Of a stretch of 9,296 nucleotides of DNA, positions 4,799 through 9,296 are shown in pieces. Source of the DNA: Oscillospiraceae bacterium (GTDB lineage Bacteria; Bacillota_A; Clostridia; Oscillospirales; WRJC01); assembly GCA_009785015.1 (NCBI GenBank), contig WQXD01000134.1, positions 1-9,296 on the forward strand, in the 5' to 3' direction. Position 1 is the first letter of the stretch; each line of letters starts with the position of its first letter. The notes below the pieces were generated by a model. It did not search any database. It was not told where the DNA came from and worked only from the letters and a program-made list of their open reading frames with translations. The position numbers and the translations under genes were made by a program.

Positions 4799-4827
4799 CG
4801 TCATTGCGAGCGAAGCGAAACAATCCA
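4799..4827 (+). repeat. Dispersed-repeat copy 1 (direct copy outside the inverted pair)
   Basis: This 29-bp unit starting CGTCATTGCGAGCGAAGCGA and ending CAATCCA matches the unit at 4831-4859 at 26 of 29 positions in the same orientation, with a 32-bp period. It matches the reverse complement of 5173-5201 at 28 of 29 positions. It belongs to a type of repeat I recognise from many bacterial genomes, where its six-frame translations (such as HCEQSEAIQ or FASLAMT) produce spurious ORFs. Confidence 0.85.
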
Positions 4828-4861
4828 TTCCGTCATTGCGAGCAGAGCGAAGCAATCCAGT
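4824..4861 (+). repeat. Left arm of 38-bp inverted repeat flanking the GIY-YIG gene (copy 2)
   Basis: Pairs base for base with 5171-5208 at 36 of 38 positions; the only mismatches are the adjacent bases 4844-4845 (AG here, GA in the other copies). The first bases overlap the end of repeat copy 1. The arm stops one base short of the SD site of the GIY-YIG gene. Each unit also carries a small internal palindrome, ATTGC...GCAAT. Confidence 0.93.
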
Positions 4862-4862
4862 A

Positions 4863-4868
4863 AAGGAG
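4863..4868 (+). promoter_or_regulatory. Ribosome binding site that fixes the GIY-YIG start
   Basis: AAGGAG lies 9 nt before the ATG at 4878 and supports that start. The upstream in-frame TTG at 4836 is inside the repeat arm, has no such site, and would add 14 residues encoded mostly by repeat sequence. Confidence 0.85.
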
Positions 4869-4877
4869 CAGATAACG

Positions 4878-5171
4878 ATGAATACAAAACAAGGTTACGT
4901 ATACATTCTATTCAACAAGAGAAATGGCACATTGTATACAGGCGTCACTACAAATCTAACAAAACGTGTGTACGAGCATAAGAATAAATTGGCAGAAGGG
5001 TTTACAAGTAAATATGCAGTTGATAAACTCGGCTATTATGAAGCGCATAGTTTGATTACGGCAGCTATTGAGCGTGAAAAGCAGATAAAAGGCGGTTCGA
5101 GAAAGAAAAAGTTGGAATTGATTGAGAGCATGAATCCTGAATGGAACGATCTATATGAATCTATTATTTAA
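4878..5171 (+). CDS. Small GIY-YIG nuclease family protein (URI-type single domain)
   Basis: A 97-residue stand-alone GIY-YIG domain of the COG2827/YhbQ-like group of predicted endonucleases. The two signature strands are YVY (7-9) and YTG (20-22, Thr replacing the usual Ile). The catalytic arginine is Arg30 in TKRVYEHK, with His34 beside it, and the metal-binding glutamate is Glu67 in REKQIK. The tail NPEWNDLY (86-93) is typical of the group. The length is complete for a single-domain member and all expected active-site residues are present, so it should be active. It has no separate DNA-binding domain. The basic stretch SRKKK (74-78) may help bind nucleic acid. GC is about 35% by hand count, well below the flanking genes. 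Its stop codon touches the right repeat arm. DNA cleavage follows from the family; the target and any role in moving the repeats are inferred. Confidence 0.93.
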   Translation: MNTKQGYVYILFNKRNGTLYTGVTTNLTKRVYEHKNKLAEGFTSKYAVDKLGYYEAHSLITAAIEREKQIKGGSRKKKLELIESMNPEWNDLYESII

Positions 5172-5208
5172 CTGGATTGCTTCGCTTCGCTCGCAATGAC
5201 GGAATGGA
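5171..5208 (-). repeat. Right arm of 38-bp inverted repeat flanking the GIY-YIG gene (copy 3)
   Basis: Reverse complement of 4824-4861 with two mismatches. It begins at the last base of the GIY-YIG stop codon. Its core matches copy 1 even better (28 of 29 positions), so the left arm carries the private change at 4844-4845. The remaining gap to the lipoprotein gene (5209-5322) is AT-rich and shows only weak, interrupted palindromes. Confidence 0.93.
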
Positions 5209-5788: not shown

Positions 5789-7573
5789 TTAACTCCACAA
5801 ATCATATTCCGGCAGTATGCGCGGTGTTTTGTGAAACAGCGGAATTTTGCCTTCGCCTGCCGCGGGACGGCAGCCTGTCACGCTGTTCCCGAGCCAGTCA
5901 AATTCCACCTTCAAATCCGGGGCGCTGACCGGCCATACCTGCGATACATGAGTAAATGTTACGAGAGGCCATATCATGCGGATGACATCTCCCTCTTTGG
6001 CCTCTATTGCGGCATATGGGGCTCCCGTTTCCCATGAAATTTCGGATTTTACGCCGTTTATTTCAAGTCCTGCGTCTTTTTTGTCAACCCAATGAGGCAC
6101 GCGTATATATACTTTTCCGGTTACAGCGGGAACAACTTCCGCTCCCCCGCAGCCCGGAAACAAAGATCTGATTTCGCATAATTCATTTTTCAGGGAAAAA
6201 GGCATATGTATATATAATCCGCCGGATAAGAATCCGTTTTCACCCTCCATCACGGCGGCGGCGCGGTATGTCGTATAGATAGCGCGCATCCCCTCGGGGG
6301 CGCAGCACCCGAAAATACAAAACCCGGAAACTCCCCCGAGAAGCTCGTTTTCATAGTCGTTTATACCCGAACCGCCTATTATCGCGCCCTGAATACGCTT
6401 TAACAACTCTATCTGCCCATCCAATTCTTCTGGCGTTCTGTCCCCGTGAACCCTGCGGTAATACGCCTCCATCTCGGGCGTCAGGATAAACTGCAGATTG
6501 ACTATATAATTCCTGAAAAAGCGTTCGGCGTAATCGAAATATTCGGGATAACCGGCGCGGCCTAAAATAGCCGCCACGGAAATCATATCGGATACCGCGC
6601 AGGTTTCGCAGCAGTTGTCAGGCAGGGCGGGAAACCAGCCCGTGCCGGTGCCGCGGCTCATCATCCAATCAAAACTGCGTTTCGCGAATTCGATATACTT
6701 TTTTTCGCCTGTGGCAAGGCCGAGCTCGGCTATGCCCCATACGCAGTGCATCGTCGCGTGCGAATGGCCGATATTTCCGGCAGGATCAACAAATGAGCCG
6801 TCGCTGCAAAAAACCATGCTTTTGGGGAGACGGCTTTCCATGATGCCTTTGGCGGCGGCTCTGGCAAATTCAAGCGCGCTTGAATCGCCGGTTATCTTGT
6901 AGTAGTCCAAAATCGGCCCGACTGCGGGAGCGTGGTGCGTATTCCAGTAATTTCCGGCATTGGCGTTATCCCTGTCGACCGGTCCCATGCCGTTGGGGGC
7001 ATAGCAGAAATCAACGCCTTTTTCGTCTTTGCCCCATACAAACAGTTCTCTCAGCCCGGCCATGATTTTTGTTGCGAGCTCGAGCCGCTTAATATTTTTG
7101 CTCCGCCTGTAATCCTCGCACAGCGAGCGCAGGATTTTCAAAGTTCCCCATACATGAATGATATTGTCTTGTTCGCTGTAAACCGCATCCGGCAAATCCT
7201 CCCTGTAGCAGCCTCCGTGCGCGATGGCACGTCCTTTGCCGTCTATATAGCTTCTCATGCGTTCGTGATATTTTTCTTCAATATCGCCGGCAAAATCGCC
7301 GCCGGCTATATCGCGCATGTAAAACCATTCCCAATCCATGCGCGCGTCGGTATCGCAGTTGACAATCGGGTCGTCGCCTTCCCGCACGGAGGGGAACCGC
7401 AGCGGAAATACCTGAAATACCGGCTGATAATCATGCTCCGGTTTGGGGGAACGGGACAAATAATTCATAGCCCACGCGGCCATTTTTTTGAGGCTGATAT
7501 CACCGCAGCGCGATATGCCTTCAGCCTTGTATTTTATGCCGGTTATTTCGCCGTTGATACCCGATATTTGCAT
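5789..7573 (-). CDS. GH127-like glycosidase (putative beta-L-arabinofuranosidase superfamily), copy A
   Basis: A 594-residue soluble protein without a signal peptide, so probably cytoplasmic. It has an N-terminal (alpha/alpha)-barrel-like region, including GNYWNTHHAPAVGP and TMHCVWGIAELGLATG, then a C-terminal beta-sandwich part (GGLYIHMPFS, VYIRVPHWV). The thiol-zinc signature of GH127 is visible as Glu323-Thr-Cys325 and Cys423-Cys424 in GCCAPEGMRAIY. In the Bifidobacterium enzyme HypBA1 these correspond to Glu338, Cys340, the nucleophile Cys417 and Cys418. The acid/base glutamate expected about 16 residues before the first zinc ligand is not evident; that stretch reads RGTGTGWFPALP. It may therefore be a distinct subfamily with another substrate or acid. 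It is clearly homologous to the next gene upstream (7601-9296). The start is supported by GGGAGG at 7583-7588, 9 nt from the ATG. Confidence 0.78.
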   Translation of the reverse strand: MQISGINGEITGIKYKAEGISRCGDISLKKMAAWAMNYLSRSPKPEHDYQPVFQVFPLRFPSVREGDDPIVNCDTDARMDWEWFYMRDIAGGDFAGDIEEKYHERMRSYIDGKGRAIAHGGCYREDLPDAVYSEQDNIIHVWGTLKILRSLCEDYRRSKNIKRLELATKIMAGLRELFVWGKDEKGVDFCYAPNGMGPVDRDNANAGNYWNTHHAPAVGPILDYYKITGDSSALEFARAAAKGIMESRLPKSMVFCSDGSFVDPAGNIGHSHATMHCVWGIAELGLATGEKKYIEFAKRSFDWMMSRGTGTGWFPALPDNCCETCAVSDMISVAAILGRAGYPEYFDYAERFFRNYIVNLQFILTPEMEAYYRRVHGDRTPEELDGQIELLKRIQGAIIGGSGINDYENELLGGVSGFCIFGCCAPEGMRAIYTTYRAAAVMEGENGFLSGGLYIHMPFSLKNELCEIRSLFPGCGGAEVVPAVTGKVYIRVPHWVDKKDAGLEINGVKSEISWETGAPYAAIEAKEGDVIRMIWPLVTFTHVSQVWPVSAPDLKVEFDWLGNSVTGCRPAAGEGKIPLFHKTPRILPEYDLWS

Positions 7574-7600: not shown

Positions 7601-9296
7601 TCAATATACCGTACCGCCGTAAAGCGGAAGAAATTCGCCCTCCGGTTCCACGCCGACCACAGTGCCCCCCACCCAATGGTAACGGTATTTGGCCGCCGGC
7701 TGCCCGTGCGGCTGCACGCTCACGCTCTGCCAAAATTCGGCGAGCGGGTATGTGACCGCGAGGCAGTCGCCTGCCCTGACGCCGCCGAAGGCCACATAGG
7801 CGTTTGACGCGCCGCCCCAGCGTACAGCCGTCGCCTCGCCGTTTACATACGCGGCGACGTTCTCTTTTTGCGTCCACGCCGGAACGCGGATGTAATACGC
7901 GCCCTCTTTTTTGGCGGTGACGTCAAGGCGCCCCTCTTCCGGCAGGCCCGAAACGACCCCTGCCTCCGGTGTTTCGACTGAATACGGCAGGTTTATATAT
8001 ACGCCGCCGCCGGTGTTCTGCACGGCGTACTTCCACGCGTAGTATATAGCCCGCATGCCCTCGGGCGGACAGCAGCCCATCATGTCGAAGAACATGTTCC
8101 TGTTTTCCGGTTCCATGTCCACCCGGCCGAAATGGTTCATCTCTTTCGGCAGATAAAAGACCTTGGAATTGGGCGACAGAGCGGAGATATACCCGCCCTC
8201 CATTCCGCGCAGAAACGCCAAAGCTCCCTCTATCGCGCCGCTCTCCGCGTTTTTGTGGATTTCACGGTATGCCGCTTCGAATTCGGGCGTGAGCTCGAAC
8301 AGCGCGGGGGCGAAATAGTTGCGCATTGACCGGTCGATGCGGTCGAACAGGTTTGTATATCCCGACAGCGCCAGCCACAGTTCGACCTCCAGCATATCGG
8401 CGTTCAGGCAGGTTTCGGAATGGTTGCTGTGTTCGTTTAAGTCGCGTATTTCGGGCAGCCAGCCCGTGTCCAAGGCCCATAAGCGGTAAAAATCGTAAAT
8501 CTCCCTGACCCATTCGGTGTACCGGGCGTTGCCGGTCATATACGCGAATTGCGCCATGCCGCGCACGTCGTGCAACTGCAAATGGTTGTGACCGTTTATC
8601 CCGCCGTCTTCGCGGTGAAGGTGGTGGGGCGTCTTGTCCGATACGAAACCTTCGGCAAGCTCCGTCAGCAAGAGAAAACATTCCGGGTCCGCGGTGATAT
8701 TGTAATATTCGCACAGAGAGCTCATGACCGGCGGATAATGCCCCTGATAACCGCCTATGGATTTATGGTTTTCGACATCAAAACAAAGCCCGCCGTCGGG
8801 AAAATACGCGTAACCGTTTTCACGCGCCGCGCAGTCCGCAATCCCCAAAAACAAAACCCGCATGACGTCAAGGCTGTCCGTCTGGCCGTCGATATAGCGG
8901 TCGCATTCGCTCTGCAGCAGCTTGCCCGTGGACCACAGCGAGGGATGGTCTTCATCGCCGGGTATGCCCGTGCAGTAGCCCTTGTTCCAGCACATTCCGC
9001 CGAAATCGCCGCCGGTATGTATATATGAGACAAGCCGCTTGTGCACCGCTTCCTGTTCGGCCCTGCCATCTTCCGACGGATATATCCGGCGCATCATATT
9101 GAAAGCTATATCGTTGCGGTTTTCGGTATCTCCTATGGATATGGGGTCGGTATAGAGCGGATGGGTTTTTATGTCCGGCCGGTGCGGCCAAGGTCCCAGC
9201 GGCGTGAAAGAGAACCGGCATTCATAGCCGTTTTCGGGGTCGGGGTTGTTTTTGAGATAGTTCAGCGCTTTTTGCGCCATCAGCGCGAAATCCACC
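7601..9296 (-). CDS. GH127-like glycosidase, copy B (5'-partial)
   Basis: At least 564 residues of a second GH127-like enzyme, open to the right window edge. The GTG at 9295 is just the last codon in view. Alignment by eye of its first visible residues (ALMAQKALNYL) with residues 29-39 of copy A suggests roughly 25-30 residues are missing. Numbering from the codon at 9295, the zinc-thiol signature is Glu294-Thr-Cys296 in NHSETC and Cys408-Cys409 in GCCPPEGMRAIYYAW. The beta-rich C-terminal part contains GGGVYINLPYS and YYIRVPAWTQ. Upstream of the first zinc ligand it reads TGWLPEIRDLNEHSNHSE, where a glutamate might serve as the acid/base, unlike in copy A. GC content appears higher than in copy A. 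The expected reaction is release of beta-L-arabinofuranose or a related sugar by a cysteine nucleophile; substrate is not proven. Confidence 0.78.
   Translation of the reverse strand, partial: VDFALMAQKALNYLKNNPDPENGYECRFSFTPLGPWPHRPDIKTHPLYTDPISIGDTENRNDIAFNMMRRIYPSEDGRAEQEAVHKRLVSYIHTGGDFGGMCWNKGYCTGIPGDEDHPSLWSTGKLLQSECDRYIDGQTDSLDVMRVLFLGIADCAARENGYAYFPDGGLCFDVENHKSIGGYQGHYPPVMSSLCEYYNITADPECFLLLTELAEGFVSDKTPHHLHREDGGINGHNHLQLHDVRGMAQFAYMTGNARYTEWVREIYDFYRLWALDTGWLPEIRDLNEHSNHSETCLNADMLEVELWLALSGYTNLFDRIDRSMRNYFAPALFELTPEFEAAYREIHKNAESGAIEGALAFLRGMEGGYISALSPNSKVFYLPKEMNHFGRVDMEPENRNMFFDMMGCCPPEGMRAIYYAWKYAVQNTGGGVYINLPYSVETPEAGVVSGLPEEGRLDVTAKKEGAYYIRVPAWTQKENVAAYVNGEATAVRWGGASNAYVAFGGVRAGDCLAVTYPLAEFWQSVSVQPHGQPAAKYRYHWVGGTVVGVEPEGEFLPLYGGTVY

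Follow-up and report, generated by a model that had tools for sequence, protein, structure and literature searches.

The DNA analysed here, referred to below as the window, is a stretch of 9,296 nucleotides from an Oscillospiraceae bacterium. Two sets of genes converge within it, and a small gene for a GIY-YIG nuclease lies in the gap between them. The + strand set comprises a GH36-type glycosidase, a URO-D/MtaA-like protein and an ORF that appears lipoprotein-like by eye; the - strand set comprises another ORF that looks lipoprotein-like by eye, a GH127-like ORF whose Pfam match is below threshold, and an ORF that matches no family. Two adjacent - strand ORFs, at 5789-7573 and 7601-9295, share short direct repeats with a spacing of about 1.8 kb and are possibly divergent tandem paralogues of the GH127 type. 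The features in and around the nuclease gene are as follows.

4799..4827, + strand: extra CGTC-tagged REP upstream, in direct orientation relative to the left arm, 90% identical to the left arm and 97% complementary to the right arm
4824..4830, no strand: outer 7 bp, TCCATTC, pairing with 5202-5208; a possible palindromic target, or chance
4831..4860, + strand: left REP arm, CGTCATTGCGAG..GCAATCCAG; putative left end of a mobile unit, with boundaries taken from relatives
4862..4868, + strand: ribosome-binding site, AAAGGAG, read by eye
4878..5171, + strand: GIY-YIG nuclease gene (Ssn-like), 97 aa, with stop codon TAA at 5169-5171
5172..5201, - strand: right REP arm, inverse copy; putative right end of the mobile unit
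5202..5208, no strand: outer 7 bp, GAATGGA, pairing with 4824-4830

The window protein matches the Pfam GIY-YIG family (PF01541, E 9.9e-16) and no other Pfam family. In an alignment with 25 close homologues, E67 never varies and R30 hardly does, in agreement with an earlier reading of this DNA from the sequence alone (the sequence-only reading), which held that the catalytic Arg30 and Glu67 are kept. The AlphaFold model (mean pLDDT 81.6) is a bare GIY-YIG domain, for which the nearest solved folds are UPF0213 (1zg2, 32% identity; the YhbQ type) and Slx1, with only UPF0213 at E < 0.001; a search of solved structures at a loose threshold returned chance matches, at E 0.2-2, to unrelated proteins including toxins. 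Domain searches in Pfam and NCBIfam found no recognisable transposase, and no HUH tyrosine transposase, in the window protein, and the NCBIfam group I intron endonuclease matches it only below the cut-off. GIY-YIG homing endonucleases of the I-TevI type share the catalytic domain and the idea of spread by cutting, but the window element has no separate DNA-binding domain, lies at an intergenic site and has repeats at its ends. We rejected a homing endonuclease on these grounds, the gene being intergenic, 97 aa long and of one domain, without intron or intein.

The sequence-only reading had placed this gene inside a near-perfect inverted repeat of 38 bp with almost no slack, and a recount by hand gives the same result: 36 of the 38 positions pair between the arms (4824-4861 and 5171-5208), the left arm directly abuts the ribosome-binding site, and the right arm starts within the stop codon, at its last base. 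A repeat search extends the pairing to 50 nt at 86%, and no other inverted repeat in the window is as long. Next in length (29 nt, 97%) comes the right arm paired with the extra upstream REP; among inverted repeats unrelated to these, none exceeds 25 nt (84%, arms 2 kb apart). The 38-bp repeat is real, but it does not stand as a single arm: it is composed of a 30-bp CGTC-tagged REP and 7 bp outside the REP whose pairing is rare in relatives, and a second REP lies upstream. The layout of the arm, CGTC-ATTGCGAG...GCAAT-CCAG, fits the CGTC-tagged REP superfamily as set out by Di Nocera et al. (PMC3733652), with which it shares the CGTC tag, A/T at the first stem positions, the CCA tail and, in relatives, dimers in opposite orientation. 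The superfamily ends are an unpaired CGTC or TGTC/CCTC and a CCA-like tail; the window has CGTC..CCAG, and its relatives have CGTC or TGTC. The stem appears to differ: superfamily members have stems of 8-9 bp with loops of 4-5 bases, whereas the window REP has ATTGC/GCAAT (5 bp) and a 2-bp inner stem across an internal loop. The window hairpins are weak alone, with stability not above that of shuffles, and REP loops in relatives have many different lengths. Searches of the window detected no Rfam family at the gathering score and no tRNA.

Across 60 loci including the window, the flanks just outside the arms pair slightly more than expected, with a mean score of 3.14 versus 2.35 (sd 0.15) for mismatched flanks. 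Palindromic outer flanks are clear in the window (TCCATTC/GAATGGA) and at locus L036, and are also seen in several units of the relative G118. This slight excess hints that insertion may occur at the centres of palindromes, which remains a lead only, because scores of at least 6 occur in only 5 of the 60 loci, window included, and three of these (L069, L072 and L076) are similar Bacteroidia loci.

Our search for homologues scored 7,998 candidates, of which the best 120 were listed, at 73-89% identity. A profile made from the window protein and 25 of the listed homologues found 113 loci, taking one genome per species, and we analysed the best 80. These 80 have 65-85% identity and come from Bacillota, Melainabacteria, Bacteroidota, Spirochaetota, Elusimicrobiota, Pseudomonadota, candidate phyla and others. 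In most of the flanks examined there is a REP upstream of the gene and an inverse copy at or after the stop codon. The sequence-only reading had proposed checking whether homologues carry the repeat, and they usually do: allowing one substitution per 10-base arm core, both arms are present at 60 of the 80 relatives, one arm at 13 and neither at 7. By comparison, the 875 other ORFs of at least 100 aa at the same loci have both arms in 3 cases, one in 73 and neither in 799. With a stricter two-part REP definition and a 100-bp limit, both arms flank 50 of the 80 relatives versus 0 of the 875 other ORFs, and with the two-part definition random intervals of the same length have both arms in 8 of 36,614 draws. 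As in insertion sequences, terminal inverted repeats surround the gene. These comparisons establish, at the level of sequence, a systematic link between nuclease gene and repeats across phyla.

We considered whether the inverted repeat arose by chance or serves as a transcription terminator, its apparent spread reflecting misbinned metagenome contigs, given that MAG contigs, some of them short, make up most of the 80 loci and that the protein tree is poorly resolved. This is very improbable: other ORFs on the same contigs are almost never so flanked, and the same architecture occurs in a Pelotomaculum isolate genome and in complete plasmids of Azospirillum, Shinella and others. We rejected a chance or terminator origin of the repeat in view of its association with the same gene in distant bacteria. 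In the tree of the 80 proteins and the window protein, phylum labels require 23 changes; the labels are clustered, with groups broken up. The tree is based on 96 columns and leaves 47 of its 74 inner branches open, and the names of some MAGs may be wrong, so it supports cross-phylum transfer in general terms only. Two variants of the locus were seen among the relatives. At L005 (10001-10708), the unit is duplicated head to tail, giving two equal-scoring nuclease genes 426 bp apart. At L011 / L143 (Pelotomaculum), the nuclease frame continues through the right REP because there is no stop codon before it, and several other long-frame matches suggest likewise.

Several more distant homologues carry other repeats. 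A tblastn search of a plasmid collection, which includes large replicons and some chromosomes, matched 34 records at up to 65% identity, and we compared upstream with downstream flanks in ten of them, assuming no motif. An inverted flank pair clearly above shuffles was found in 6 of the 10: Neisseria gonorrhoeae (ATTCCCGC..GCGGGAATGACG, dRS3-like), Aeromonas caviae (CGTCATTCCCGCG..), Shinella (CGTCATCCTCGGG..), Azospirillum (CGTCATCCCCGCG..), Novosphingobium (CGTCGCCCCG..) and Sinorhizobium meliloti (CCTCATCCCTGTG.., with a CCTC variant of the tag). The other four, from Planktothrix (borderline), Rhizobium, Spirosoma and Photobacterium, showed no clear flanking pair. The CGTC-1 repeats of Neisseria are dRS3, according to PMC3733652. 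A single nuclease family thus seems to be partnered by several members of one repeat superfamily, which differ from each other in stem sequence. By contrast, UPF0213-like relatives in Bacillota, distant from the window protein, are without a flanking REP; 1 of 23 has a repeat, which is unrelated, and two more loci gave no tblastn match. The closest annotated plasmid homologue (65%), on Planktothrix agardhii plasmid p1 (L223, 1498-1782), lies inside a defence cluster, with an MmeI-type restriction enzyme on one side and DISARM drmA on the other. We also considered the gene as phage or plasmid cargo. Viral contigs gave 3 distant matches at 35% identity and phage records gave 2; from these matches and the 34 in the plasmid collection, we see no sign of a phage vehicle, and rejected this candidate.

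The Neisseria gonorrhoeae homologue, with 49% identity over 97 residues, is presumably Ssn, a site-specific nuclease for single-stranded DNA of the GIY-YIG superfamily. Ssn reportedly recognises a repeat present in hundreds of copies, and many homologues are said to have other specificities. The Neisseria enzyme modulates natural transformation. The sequence-only reading knew of no described element of this kind, a claim that our results do not support: the Neisseria homologue has dRS3-type arms, and Ssn is probably the closest studied relative. Like Ssn, the window protein is a small GIY-YIG domain of about 100 aa, and both genes lie between an inverted pair of a genomic repeat. If this identity is right, the kind of enzyme and its link to a repeat are thus already known. 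The two differ in the repeat, which is ATTGCGAG..GCAAT in the window and ATTCCC..GGGAAT in Neisseria, and in that units of the window type appear from comparison to move with their repeats, whereas no such claim is known for Ssn. Two things from the sequence comparison may be new here, namely that the repeats belong to the CGTC REP superfamily, and that the nuclease and its arms very probably form a mobile unit with non-autonomous derivatives. A literature search, which did not cover the Ssn paper, found nothing joining GIY-YIG with CGTC REPs, and GIY-YIG is not mentioned in those papers citing PMC3733652 that were searched.

Evidence for mobility comes from the ends of the units and from empty sites. 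Among 52 pairs of loci that share a block at least 80% identical, the block ends at most 7 bp from REP tags on both sides in 23 (hand count); the remaining 29 include vertically shared loci (L072/L074 and L042/L044), units lacking one arm, and blocks that reach into the flank. Six Gastranaerophilales-type units are all 427 bp long, one of them (L031) in a contig binned as Acinetobacter, and six Clostridia-type units are 381-394 bp. The flanks of the twelve checked units are unrelated for up to 2 kb per side, save for one 250-bp stretch, common to L023 and L039 (from one bin) on one side, and short matches of 31-101 bp.

In Azospirillum lipoferum 4B, plasmid AZO_p3 (L227, 1339-1950) carries a unit with REP dimers on both sides between sufB and sufC, genes of the iron-sulphur assembly cluster. 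The unit is missing from four relatives (A. ramasamyi, A. oryzae, strain B510 and A. argentinense) with flanks 82-97% identical, and neither a CGTCATCC nor a GGATCCAG core occurs in their four empty gaps when up to one substitution is allowed. A Shinella unit has no counterpart in two relatives (80-83% identity), and one relative at 94% has it; the gaps of the two relatives contain no REP core save one single-substitution match. Of the 11 other genomes in the genus of G016, 10 match the sequence adjoining the unit, and six intergenic gaps that we read have no unit and no REP core but for one partial match with two substitutions. Pelotomaculum terephthalicicum is the sole genome of 25 in its family with a close homologue (74%), nine other genomes of the family having only relatives at 32-37% identity. 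The sole exact REP match among those 25 genomes adjoins this homologue, and its other arm has a loop longer than the exact pattern permits. For the window itself, a search for an empty site matched 4 of 150 genomes from the family of G001, the home of the nearest relative (L001); G001 matched over the gene only, and the other three over short stretches. We found no excess of target-site duplication, the terminal direct match having a mean of 1.35 versus 1.29 (sd 0.11) for mismatched flanks at 60 loci.

Comparison of these loci shows units with sharp ends that were, as far as sequence can tell, gained jointly at sites empty in sister species. The nuclease gene and its REP arms thus very probably form a mobile unit, as the sequence-only reading had suggested on the strength of the window alone; the ends at REP tags in unrelated flanks speak for it. 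That reading had also named two things that, taken together, would speak against mobility: strains without the gene lacking any trace of the repeat at the locus, and vertical inheritance of the gene. The first is what we see, with empty sites that have no clear REP. The second is not, as gene and repeats are patchy and appear together.

Alternatively, the host may harbour the nuclease as a resident, Ssn-like gene whose product acts through the REP on recombination or DNA uptake, with homologous recombination between REPs moving the gene and its arms, without self-driven spread. The role of the Neisseria enzyme in transformation would fit such a gene, as would the vertical inheritance in some relatives seen at the shared loci mentioned above. 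The dRS3 repeats are described as recombination hotspots in PMC10745880. Recombination between REPs requires a REP at the target, however, and the empty sites examined are without a clear one; moreover, there is no second exact REP match in the Pelotomaculum genome. Copy numbers bear on this explanation too. We counted protein matches and REP matches using 48 and 47 of the 80 loci, respectively, in 47 genomes. Every one of the 47 has only 1-6 matches to the nuclease protein, as expected for a resident gene. Nonetheless, the REP dimers and deletion derivatives described below resemble passengers mobilised in trans, and on balance we regard a resident gene moved by recombination as unlikely.

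High copy number is a mark of CGTC-tagged REPs; among the relatives, an exact REP match is found in 38 of the 47 gene-bearing genomes, in 1 to 1023 copies, and is lacking in G001 (the seed genome) and eight others; a reversed control pattern gave none. The highest count is from G007 (the genome of L007, a Spirochaetaceae MAG), with 1023 exact REPs in about 3.3 Mb versus a single nuclease match, a very heavy load of repeats. Among 299 Bacillota drawn across the phylum, G001 included, none has the exact REP. A homologue at E < 1e-25 is present in 5 of the same genomes, and any match in 94; hence, close homologues without the exact REP exist. All of the five but G001 have 60-64% identity and are without a flanking inverted repeat. 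For the 38 genomes in the genus of G023, gene and REP are both present in 16, the gene only in 2, the REP only in 9 and neither in 11 (Fisher P = 0.006); the absences are soft, because many of these genomes are MAGs.

Where REPs are numerous, many are arranged as dimers. G016 has 109 exact REP matches, including 33 inverted pairs about 87 bp apart (hand count), and the 19 pairs examined are REP dimers of 111-115 bp. Searching G016 with the unit gave many short dimer matches to the unit ends, for example 54 bp at 96%. G118 has one full-length nuclease gene and twelve partial matches, with deletion derivatives that share breakpoints across contigs (80|255 of 427 in four, 95|230 in two). These derivatives sit within composite repeat clusters, and duplication of the clusters may explain part of the G118 copies. 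At L241, L246 and L247 of the same genome, dense arrays of REPs and derivatives are nested in other palindromes: CCTGACTTCC[unit]GGAAGTCAGG and GCAAACAAAGTGG[unit]CCACTTTGTTTGC. As in REPIN/RAYT systems, REP dimers are thus present as apparent non-autonomous copies in the relatives G016 and G118. The comparison with REP/RAYT elements made in the sequence-only reading was apt: both have a small gene between REPs, non-autonomous REP dimers, and few genes with sometimes many repeats per genome. The enzymes differ, RAYTs being tyrosine (HUH) transposases that bind GTAG REPs and the window enzyme a GIY-YIG nuclease.

The whole unit might instead be a passenger whose REP pair is mobilised in trans by some other enzyme, for instance an IS200/IS605-type transposase, the nuclease gene being a chance capture or retained for a different role. 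According to PMC3733652, RAYTs are thought to move the REPs of the GTAG superfamily. The captured gene, however, belongs to the same family in distant phyla, and according to the same paper CGTC-tagged REPs were apparently without a dedicated transposase as of 2013: transposases flanked by CGTC REPs had been sought, with only a few fortuitous associations found, and no partner enzyme is named there. We consider a captured nuclease improbable.

We therefore favour, with some confidence, the view that positions 4831-5201 of the window are a mobile unit of 371 bp with one GIY-YIG nuclease gene, in which inverted CGTC-tagged REPs would be the ends and the likely recognition sites; we are similarly inclined to see it as the GIY-YIG counterpart of a REP/RAYT element. 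The REP is probably the target of the nuclease. That the nuclease itself drives the spread of the unit is a more finely balanced proposition. The enzyme would bind the REP, probably in single-stranded or hairpin form, at a replication fork or on incoming DNA, and would nick or cut it, as the Ssn analogy suggests. Repair or template-switch copying might then, we speculate, set the unit at new sites, and REP-only derivatives, served in trans, would be copied to new sites also. We know of no GIY-YIG enzyme that joins strands. Since the same package of gene and repeats is found at unrelated sites in distant bacteria, we suggest that this enzyme is the missing partner of CGTC REPs. In general form, CGTC-tagged REPs may or may not, with neither outcome clearly ahead, be dispersed by dedicated Ssn-like GIY-YIG nucleases, such that a gene between REPs would be autonomous, dimers and deletion derivatives would be passengers, and cut-and-copy across phyla would proceed via single-stranded or hairpin DNA without a transposase.

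Of the two large REP superfamilies, the CGTC-tagged one had no known mobilising gene in 2013, according to PMC3733652. Finding a GIY-YIG partner systematically beside these repeats, along with sharp ends to the units, sites that are empty in relatives and non-autonomous derivatives, turns this question into a direct assay: does the 97-residue protein cut the 30-base repeat, and does the unit then move? If so, the unit would rank as a very small autonomous element (about 370-430 bp) that spreads its repeat by a new route, and a predicted recognition sequence would accompany every nuclease.
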